From Calditrichota bacterium (GTDB lineage: Bacteria > Zhuqueibacterota > Zhuqueibacteria > Thermofontimicrobiales > Thermofontimicrobiaceae): a stretch of 51,826 nucleotides of DNA. A program made the translations under genes and the position numbers. Position 1 is the first letter of the stretch, and the number at the start of each line of letters is the position of its first letter. This document shows, piece by piece, positions 27,962-30,464 of this stretch. The notes below the pieces were generated by a model. The model saw only the letters and a list, made by a program, of their open reading frames with translations. It did no database searches and had not been told where the DNA came from. The stretch lies in assembly GCA_013152715.1 (NCBI GenBank), contig JAADFU010000184.1, forward strand, positions 1 to 51,826, in the 5' to 3' direction.

Positions 27962-27990
27962 TTGCATTTTTCAGCTATGCGTATTATATT
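27962..27990 (+). promoter_or_regulatory. Promoter of the tryptophan-attenuated transcript
   Basis: TTGCAT (27962-27967), exactly 17 bases, TATATT (27985-27990). Transcription should begin near 27997, only about 20 bases before the leader ORF and just before its GGGAAA ribosome-binding site (28005-28010). Confidence 0.7.
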
Positions 27991-28016
27991 ATAAAAAATT
28001 ATATGGGAAATTAATC

Positions 28017-28121
28017 GTGAATAAAATCATCGTCTCAAATATGAACTTCGCTTTGACAACCGATAGTAATTGGTGGTGGTGGCGTACGTCCATATTTGGG
28101 GAGGATTTATTGACGACTTAA
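28017..28121 (+). CDS. Tryptophan leader peptide (four consecutive Trp codons)
   Basis: A 34-codon ORF with GTG start, GGGAAA seven bases upstream, and TAA at 28119-28121. Codons 19-22 (28071-28082) are TGG TGG TGG TGG, within SNWWWWRTS. Runs of Trp codons in a short ORF ahead of a terminator are the hallmark of ribosome-mediated tryptophan attenuation. When charged tRNA-Trp is scarce, a ribosome would stall here and leave the bases from 28098 onward free. An internal ATG at 28041 would give 26 codons with the same Trp run but has no ribosome-binding site. The peptide itself probably has no function. Confidence 0.9.
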   Translation: MNKIIVSNMNFALTTDSNWWWWRTSIFGEDLLTT

Positions 28122-28185
28122 TTTCAACGATAACAATATGAGAAAAATAAATTCAACCCACTTTTATGAAGGTGGGTTTTTTTTT
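28098..28185 (+). promoter_or_regulatory. Tryptophan attenuator: antiterminator and terminator
   Basis: Two exclusive pairings are visible. Antiterminator: GGGGAGGATTTATT (28098-28111) pairs with AATAAATTCAACCC (28146-28159), 12 of 14 positions including one G-T, plus T28097 with A28160. Terminator: AACCCACTTT (28155-28164) pairs with 28169-28178 over 10 bp with one wobble, then nine T residues. They share 28155-28160. A ribosome stalled on the Trp codons leaves 28098-28111 open, so the antiterminator forms; a ribosome reaching the stop codon covers that segment, so the terminator forms. A strong pause hairpin between the Trp codons and 28098-28111 is not evident. Confidence 0.85.
28155..28185 (+). 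terminator. Attenuator terminator hairpin
   Basis: Ten-base-pair stem (28155-28164 with 28169-28178), loop TATG, followed by T through 28185. It lies ahead of, not behind, the serine-kinase-like gene, so it acts as a conditional stop. Confidence 0.9.
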
Positions 28186-28204
28186 GCCTAAATTCGGAGG
28201 GAAA

Positions 28205-29059
28205 GTGAACACATTGAACGACCAACAGCTAAAGATCGGAGAATTGCCGAAACTGCAAATTATGCCAATCGCGAATATTACTTTTCACGAAGAGCCGGAT
28301 GAAGAGCGTTCCGGAAAACTCATTGAGTATTTGCGCAAAGAGAATAAACTGAAAAATCCTCCTGTCGTCGCTACTTACGGTAAAAATAATCATTACATTT
28401 TATTAGACGGAGCGAATCGAATTACCGCACTGCGTCGATTGCAAATTCCCGATGTTCTGGCGCAAGTGATTGACCTGTTCGATGAGGGGCTTATTTTTCT
28501 TCATTGGCGTCACGCTGTGGAACATTTTTCCAAACGGGAATTTGTGGACAAACTCCGGCAAATCCCTTCAATTAAAATCAATCGAATGGCGGCTGGTACG
28601 CTGCAGTCGAATGAAAATGGGGACTTGCTTTGCCAGATTCTGTTTGGAGACGGCAGCCTTTACGCAGTGCGCGCTCACTCGGATTTATTCCAAAGAGTCG
28701 AAGATTTGAAACAAATCACCGCACTCTACAAAGGCTCCTATTACATGGATCGCGTCAGCTACACCAATCTGCAGCATCTGAAACACAACTATCCTGATTT
28801 TTGTGCGCTTGTCGTTTTCCGGGAATTCACCAAAGAGGAATTGGTCCAGCTAACGGAAAAGAAAATTCTGATTCCCAGCGGCATTACGCGAGTCATCTTG
28901 CCTAAGCGCGCTCTGCGCGTCAACGCGCCATTGGATATTCTAAGATTCGACGTTTCTATTGACCAAAAAAATCATTGGCTGCAGAAGCGCATCAATGAAC
29001 AAATTTCAGACAAATCCATTCGATTTTATCATGAACCAACATTTTTATTTGATGAATAA
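28205..29059 (+). CDS. ParB-fold protein, SbnI/SerK-like free serine kinase (putative)
   Basis: A 284-residue protein with the ParB/sulfiredoxin-like fold of SbnI and SerK, which phosphorylate free L-serine to O-phospho-L-serine. The N-terminal ITFHEEPDEER holds His28-Glu29, and YILLDGANRITALRRL holds Asp68-Gly69. From memory these match the catalytic Glu and Asp regions (E20 and D58) of SbnI. Later ILIPSGITRVILPKRALRVN also fits that family. The start is GTG at 28205 with GGAGG four bases upstream; an in-frame ATG at 28166 lies in the terminator loop and is not credible. It is placed directly behind the Trp attenuator and 40 bases before trpB2. A DNA-binding ParB role is the main alternative but unlikely. 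Confidence 0.75.
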   Translation: MNTLNDQQLKIGELPKLQIMPIANITFHEEPDEERSGKLIEYLRKENKLKNPPVVATYGKNNHYILLDGANRITALRRLQIPDVLAQVIDLFDEGLIFLHWRHAVEHFSKREFVDKLRQIPSIKINRMAAGTLQSNENGDLLCQILFGDGSLYAVRAHSDLFQRVEDLKQITALYKGSYYMDRVSYTNLQHLKHNYPDFCALVVFREFTKEELVQLTEKKILIPSGITRVILPKRALRVNAPLDILRFDVSIDQKNHWLQKRINEQISDKSIRFYHEPTFLFDE

Positions 29060-29099: not shown

Positions 29100-30464
29100 A
29101 TGAAACAGACAAAAATTTTCCTATCGGAAAATGAAATGCCAAAACAGTGGTACAACATTCTTTCGGACTTGCCCAAGCCAATGCCGCCCGTGTTGCATCC
29201 GGCGACTCATAAGCCCATCGGGCCCGACGACCTGGCGCCTCTGTTCCCAATGGAAATCATCAAGCAGGAAGTCAGCACCGAACGATGGATCGATATTCCG
29301 GAGCAAGTGCGGGATATTTATCGTCTCTGGAGACCGTCTCCGCTCTTTCGCGCGCGTCGGCTCGAAAAAGCGCTCGATACGCCGGCAAAAATCTATTTCA
29401 AGTATGAGGGAGTCAGCCCTGCCGGGAGCCACAAACCCAACACGGCGATTGCTCAGGCCTATTACAATAAGCAGGAAGGCGTCAAACGGATCACGACAGA
29501 AACCGGCGCCGGACAGTGGGGTAGCGCGCTGAGTCTCGCTTGTAATTTTTTTGATATTGAATGCAAAGTCTATATGGTGAAAGTGAGCTACGATCAGAAA
29601 CCGTACCGCAAGTCGATGATTCGCGCCTGGGGCGCCACTATTGTCCCCAGTCCAAGCCCGGATACCAACGCCGGAAGAAGCGTTCTGGAAAGATATCCGG
29701 ACTCGCCGGGAAGTTTGGGAATCGCCATCAGCGAAGCCGTGGAAGATGCGGCGACGCGGGACGACACGAAATATTCGCTGGGAAGCGTGTTAAATCACGT
29801 GCTGCTGCACCAAACAGTGATCGGTCTGGAAGCGAAAAAACAGATGGAAATTGCCGGAGATTACCCGGATGTGATCGTCGGCTGCGTCGGCGGCGGCAGC
29901 AATTTCGGCGGAATCGTCTTGCCCTTTATCAAAGATAAATTGGAAGGAAAAAAATTGCGTGCCATCGCCGTCGAACCGGCTTCCTGTCCGACTTTGACTC
30001 GCGGCCCCTATGCCTACGATTTTGGCGATGAAGCACAAATGACGCCGATGCTGGCGATGTATACGCTGGGACACGATTTTGTGCCTCCGCCAATTCACGC
30101 TGGCGGTTTGCGCTATCATGGAATGGCACCGATTATTAGCCATCTCGTCCGCGAAAAATATGTGGAAGCTGTCGCTTACAAACAATTGGAAATTTTCCAA
30201 TCAGGCGTGCTTTTCAGCCGCGCGGAAGGAATAATTCCAGCGCCAGAGTCCACTCACGCCATTCATGCAACAATTGTCGAAGCGCTGAAGGCAAAAGAAG
30301 CGGGCGTTCCGGTAACCATTCTGTTCAATCTCAGCGGTCACGGACATTTTGACATGGCTTCCTACGACGCCTATTTCGACGGAAAACTACCAGACCACGC
30401 GCTTCCCGAAGACGAAATTAAAAAAGCGCTGGAAGTGACCAAAAATTATCCGCAAATCGACTAA
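29100..30464 (+). CDS. trpB2: Tryptophan synthase beta chain, TrpB2 type
   Basis: A PLP enzyme that joins indole to a serine-derived aminoacrylate to make tryptophan. At 454 residues, with the long N-terminal part ([21 protein letters not shown]), it is the TrpB2 class rather than TrpB1 (about 400). The PLP lysine is Lys112 in [21 protein letters not shown] is the catalytic Glu loop and [10 protein letters not shown] binds the cofactor phosphate. No trpA or other trp gene is adjacent. TrpB2 enzymes have been reported to prefer O-phospho-L-serine, which fits the gene upstream. GAGGAG precedes the ATG, and a strong terminator ends the operon. Confidence 0.93.

Follow-up and report, generated by a model that had tools for sequence, protein, structure and literature searches.

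Can a run of four Trp codons in a short ORF, located upstream of two genes which do not make up a trp operon, be the sensor of a tryptophan attenuator, and what would such a switch control? We addressed this question for a locus in the window (the whole stretch of DNA that was analysed, 51,826 nucleotides), for which a preliminary description had proposed ribosome-mediated Trp attenuation of a different gene set in an apparently FCB-type bacterium. The host assignment fits, as the nearest named genomes are those of candidate division KSB1. Taken as a whole, the likely explanation is a ribosome-mediated Trp attenuator resembling that of E. coli trpL, which would switch on a serK-trpB2 salvage operon under tryptophan scarcity.

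The leader and its controlled genes in the window

The elements of the locus are as follows:
27962-27990, + strand: sigma-70-type promoter, read directly (TTGCAT 27962-27967, 17-nt spacer, TATATT 27985-27990)
28014-28047, + strand: segment 1, the 5' part of the leader ORF, which can pair with segment 2 (28087-28117)
28017-28121, + strand: leader peptide ORF of 34 codons including WWWW (GTG 28017, TAA 28119-28121), peptide VNKIIVSNMNFALTTDSNWWWWRTSIFGEDLLTT
28071-28082, + strand: four regulatory Trp codons (four times TGG)
28097-28111, + strand: segment 2, antiterminator 5' arm, starting 14 nt past the last Trp codon (+13 with one unpaired base) and showing covariation
28146-28160, + strand: segment 3, antiterminator 3' arm, sharing 28155-28160 with the 5' stem of the terminator
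28155-28178, + strand: intrinsic terminator hairpin (segments 3:4), 10 bp, -11.8 kcal/mol
28177-28185, + strand: terminator T run, nine T
28205-29059, + strand: serK-like gene, free serine kinase homologue of 284 aa (GTG start, GGAGGG upstream)
29100-30464, + strand: trpB2, stand-alone tryptophan synthase beta type 2 (TIGR01415, 674 bits vs a cut-off of 518.85)

The promoter, the leader ORF with its consecutive Trp codons, and the antiterminator with an overlapping nine-T terminator are all present where the preliminary description had put them, with the antiterminator arms refined to 28097-28111 and 28146-28160. In the window alone the promoter is not above chance; TTGACA/T-17-TATATT occurs at the same position and with the same spacing in six relatives (L005, L006, L008, L010, L013 and L015). 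The antiterminator consists of TGGG (28097-28100) paired with CCCA (28157-28160) and of GGATTTATT (28103-28111) paired with AATAAATTC (28146-28154), and this 2:3 duplex stands out from composition shuffles (z -4.0, p 0.003). A possible competing 1:2 helix (28014-28047 with 28087-28117, dG -23.2) has a shuffle p of 0.023 in the window and is comparable in most relatives (single p values 0.03-0.15), but is absent in L006 and less well supported than the other helices. In the window antiterminator, just the TGGG:CCCA pairing competes with the terminator (4 bp; p 0.28 alone), whereas the overlap amounts to 6-10 bp in most relatives, and in the minimum free energy fold of the window leader the terminator coexists with a partial 2:3 helix. 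With just 4 bp of overlap, antitermination in the window would have to be kinetic, as it is thought to be in E. coli.

The hairpin at 28155-28178 is the sole terminator-like site between 27900 and 30650, and a scan of the 51.8-kb window for a short ORF with WW or WxWxW followed by a hairpin and T run returned this site alone. Genome-wide there are 20 TGGTGGTGG sites, and among these the scan for WWW plus a hairpin gave one other short-ORF candidate, a weak one in L180; the leader itself occurs once in the genome. Rfam gave no match on the leader at gathering score, with RF00513 (Trp_leader) reaching 20.8 bits against a cut-off of 41; in a low-score search an unrelated sRNA family outranked RF00513 by E-value, probably due to the terminator.

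Conservation and covariation of the leader

The Trp run, both alternative helices and their spacing are conserved in relatives, and neither the Trp run nor both pairings were seen to be lost in close relatives. Within the class, the leader was found upstream of all 12 serK-trpB2 operons which were readable, i.e. with complete upstream DNA: nine are Trp-only (W4, W4, W4, WLWW, WWW, W5, WRWWW, WFWPWWW and WRWWWW, with 3-5 Trp codons in a short run) and three are mixed Trp/Phe/Tyr. The contigs of L007 and L009 begin inside the leader, with just the terminator visible, and that of L015 in G011 stops within serK, its trpB2 being assumed. The leader peptides diverge except in the Trp run. A Trp leader also precedes 12/19 trpB2 genes without serK.

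Structure was assessed in 12 aligned leaders, in which the terminator is paired in 92.5% of cells vs 37-53% when slid (0/500 shuffles) and shows compensatory changes, while for the antiterminator the paired fraction is 78% vs 35-49% when slid, with covariation matched in 3/500 shuffles. Arm, terminator and competing arm covary: columns 39, 108 and 126 change together from T-A-T to C-G-C; in three leaders column 108, which is common to both helices, has G in place of A, and C replaces T in each of its partners. For the wider set of 23 leaders we relied on per-sequence duplex tests, and dropped pair counts from the MAFFT alignment as the arm was misregistered between groups. The arm is complementary to the 5' stem of the terminator beyond shuffles (Fisher p 2e-18, for sequences which are not independent), the T run is present in 23/23, and the arm starts 5-15 nt past the last Trp codon, overlapping or directly preceding the stop codon in most leaders. 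This agrees with the proposed geometry, in which a stalled ribosome frees the arm and a ribosome at the stop codon covers it. For the attenuator, the comparison among relatives carries far more weight than the statistics of any one sequence, and judged from these sequence data it is in all likelihood real.

Outside the class, the leader precedes serK-trpB2 at L069, L070, L072 and L073, in MAGs labelled Gemmatimonadota (two), Zixibacteria and Acidimicrobiia, labels which were taken over from the deposited records and could be in error, while no leader was found before serK at L067, L068, L071 and L074. Upstream of serK in L068 and L070, two Zixibacteria MAGs, there is a near-identical hairpin GGGTGGGAATACCTGAAA...GGTGTTCCCGCC with a T run, with a WWW leader in L070 and none seen in L068. 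There was no such leader at most distant SerK homologues without a detected adjacent trpB2, and it was not found in three genomes with a distant SerK and no adjacent trpB2. At L016, L017 and L018 the distant serK directly follows a ferritin/rubrerythrin-like gene, again without adjacent trpB2, and possibly makes a different use of O-phosphoserine.

Leaders with other codons were also observed. G012, G017 and G022 were considered as leaderless operons and rejected, as a Trp/Phe/Tyr leader precedes the chorismate mutase gene in each. Such WFWYWYY-type leaders (L187:7045-7191, with L186 and L191) precede chorismate mutase-serK-trpB2, and the leader codons track gene content. In KSB1-class genomes, de novo trp operons (L134, L135, L136, L137, L138, L141, L144 and L145) have Trp leader peptides and terminators of their own, with a hairpin sequence that differs from that of the trpB2 leaders; a simple 2:3 duplex test failed to reach significance for most of them, and antiterminators are not claimed. 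Mixed aromatic leaders (WFWYWYYY and FWFWYWYYYY, at L142:3907 and L143:12937, minus strand) are located directly before trpE-trpG-trpD, which suggests that these operons respond to Trp, Phe and Tyr alike.

Products of the controlled genes

The 284-aa product of the first gene has weak matches to SbnI (57.4 bits, cut-off 350) and archaeal SerK (42.1 bits, cut-off 380) in NCBIfam, both below cut-off yet covering most of its length, and on sequence it is classed as a SerK/SbnI homologue, not as an equivalog. The predicted structure (pLDDT 83) has SbnI/SerK free serine kinases as its top nine PDB matches (target-normalised TM 0.73-0.79), whereas the next matches, ParB-type proteins and sulfiredoxin, align over just a portion of the protein (query-normalised TM at most 0.26). 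Glu29 is invariant in 15 homologues and aligns with SbnI Glu20, which we take to be the catalytic glutamate; the DGxNR motif is likewise invariant. SerK and SbnI produce O-phosphoserine (PMC5120207, PMC12704722), and the homologue probably makes O-phospho-L-serine.

The trpB2 product also scores well above the cut-off of NF009057 (764 bits vs 366), has 6hul (TrpB2) as its best PDB match, and keeps the catalytic motifs (GSHKx among them). TrpB2 was reported to be O-phosphoserine-dependent by Busch 2014, as cited in PMC11917138, and on this ground the pairing of serK with trpB2 is chemically sensible; the enzyme encoded here probably condenses O-phosphoserine and indole to tryptophan. Many genomes with trpB2 have no serK, and therefore SerK-made phosphoserine is not obligatory for TrpB2. 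The claim that a different gene set is controlled thus holds in so far as this is not a trp operon, but trpB2 is a tryptophan synthase, preceded by a serine kinase homologue, and the operon still looks tryptophan-forming.

Tryptophan metabolism of the host

Of the genes of a canonical trp operon (trpE/G/D/C/F/B1/A), TrpE, TrpD, TrpC/IGPS, TrpA and TrpB1 were searched for and not found in the source genome (G000, a draft, 97.9% complete), the best candidate for TrpD being a 39-bit paralogue; the same genes were missing in nine further serK genomes, also drafts. Without TrpE, TrpD, TrpC, TrpA and TrpB1, indole must be salvaged, either from outside or via the cell's own tryptophanase-like enzyme. 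Trp pathway genes are found in addition to serK-trpB2 in G005, G013 and G018, while G023 has TrpE, TrpD and TrpC, and salvage therefore cannot be the sole context of serK-trpB2.

A tryptophanase-family gene is present in 12/14 genomes, and in G000, a genome without Trp biosynthesis, it is located at L192:2731-4104 (G000:C18). Its residues FDTTR, RSCEIGG and LRHFTA resemble tryptophanase over tyrosine phenol-lyase at three positions, which presumably separate the two enzymes, while whole-sequence scores are nearer to tyrosine phenol-lyase overall and are not decisive. With this tryptophanase-like gene in G000, the indole could be internal or external.

Proposed mechanism and alternative explanations

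When tryptophan is plentiful, the ribosome would translate through the whole Trp run, reach the stop codon and cover the arm at 28097-28111, upon which the terminator at 28155-28178 would form and transcription end. When charged tRNA-Trp is scarce, the ribosome would stall at 28071-28082 and leave the arm free to pair with 28146-28160, and formation of this antiterminator would delay the terminator and allow RNA polymerase to enter serK-trpB2. If the leader is untranslated, segment 1 could hold the arm and the terminator would form. The SerK homologue would then supply O-phospho-L-serine, which TrpB2 would combine with indole to give tryptophan, and we regard this salvage reading as reasonably probable. 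There may be an even chance that the arrangement goes further, with Trp attenuation setting the direction of a Trp-indole cycle through two-enzyme salvage in cells without de novo Trp synthesis but with tryptophanase, and extending class-wide to stand-alone trpB2, which would give the enzyme a defined in vivo role.

The leader stop codon (28119) lies 84 nt upstream of serK and the serK ribosome site is near the hairpin, and the switch might therefore act on translation or on Rho-dependent termination instead of the intrinsic terminator, but the nine-T hairpin after the leader, the compensatory stem changes and the T run in all 23 aligned leaders speak against this, as does the serK Shine-Dalgarno sequence (28196-28201), which lies outside both alternative helices; such a mechanism is very unlikely. 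We see practically no chance that the Trp-rich ORF arose by coincidence and that the conserved hairpins merely terminate, close to the promoter and in the ordinary way, the upstream trxA gene, the end of which is just 26 nt ahead of the promoter: relatives already contradict this, as trxA is missing upstream in several of them and leader, arm and terminator are still there, and the Trp run is ahead of the hairpin every time, at a fixed 5-15 nt from the arm.

With the attenuator taken as real, the alternatives concern what it controls. The pair could mainly make a product other than tryptophan, e.g. cysteine or another beta-substituted alanine from O-phosphoserine, with the Trp codons as a general sensor of amino acid starvation, and Thermococcus SerK does serve cysteine synthesis (PMC5120207) while the functions of some TrpB2 enzymes are unknown (PMC1854888). 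This is unlikely given that Trp codons are sensed in every serK-trpB2 or lone-trpB2 lineage where the leader was found, that they shift to Trp/Phe/Tyr in precisely those operons which include chorismate mutase, and that the same class places Trp leaders on de novo trp operons. Leader codons normally match the product of the genes they control, and this also argues for tryptophan. Similarly, SerK could be a regulator and not an enzyme, as has also been proposed for SbnI (which would be bifunctional): NCBIfam has "transcriptional regulator" in its name for SbnI, and relatives with the ParB fold bind nucleotides and DNA (PMC12704722). The catalytic Glu and DGxNR motif are nevertheless invariant, the fold is far closer to free serine kinases than to DNA-binding ParB proteins, and the partner enzyme class consumes the product of the kinase, and a regulatory SerK is thus equally improbable. 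We retain the Trp attenuator of a probably tryptophan-forming serK-trpB2 operon as our explanation.

Comparison with known systems

Leader-peptide attenuation was described as shown for Proteobacteria and Actinobacteria in a 2010 survey, which extends it to Firmicutes (PMC2965389), and KSB1 and its neighbours would now join the groups with this classical form of regulation. This kind of attenuator is familiar, but what it controls, the host group and the implied salvage route appear to be undocumented in the papers searched; the open-access literature searched held no account of a Trp auxotroph that combines a serine kinase with TrpB2, with prior notice in subscription papers being possible. 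Stand-alone TrpB2 has been puzzling: Pyrococcus horikoshii keeps it without other trp genes, with a selective function described as unidentified (PMC1854888). A class-wide Trp attenuator before trpB2 is regulatory evidence for tryptophan as the TrpB2 product, and the serK neighbour offers a source of the unusual donor O-phosphoserine.

The window leader shares with E. coli trpL (RF00513) the Trp codons in a short leader ORF, the mutually exclusive 2:3 and 3:4 helices, with a possible 1:2 helix, and the U-tailed terminator. The energies are also similar in scale, at -12.6 vs -15.6 for 2:3 and -17.2 vs -20.3 with the terminator, the E. coli leader sequence serving as a yardstick. The E. coli leader controls trpEDCBA with two Trp codons, whereas that in the window would control serK-trpB2 with four; its Trp run lies between segments 1 and 2, some 55 nt from the start of the ORF, and its 2-3 spacer is longer. 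In Chlamydia trachomatis, the trpRBA operon likewise retains tryptophan synthase for indole salvage without de novo synthesis, with expression tied to Trp supply, but it encodes TrpB1-TrpA, uses serine as donor, and is regulated by TrpR and YtgR, reportedly without TrpL-type attenuation (PMC7755916). Thermococcus SerK and Staphylococcus SbnI have the same fold, catalytic Glu and DGxxR motif as the window homologue at 14-20% identity, and feed cysteine or siderophore synthesis, whereas the homologue described here is paired with TrpB2. Finally, the archaeal TrpB2 enzymes (Sulfolobus 6HUL, 4QYS, 6HTE) belong to the same sequence family and to the O-phosphoserine-dependent class, but unlike these, trpB2 in the window would share its transcript with the gene of a serine kinase homologue and be subject to attenuation.
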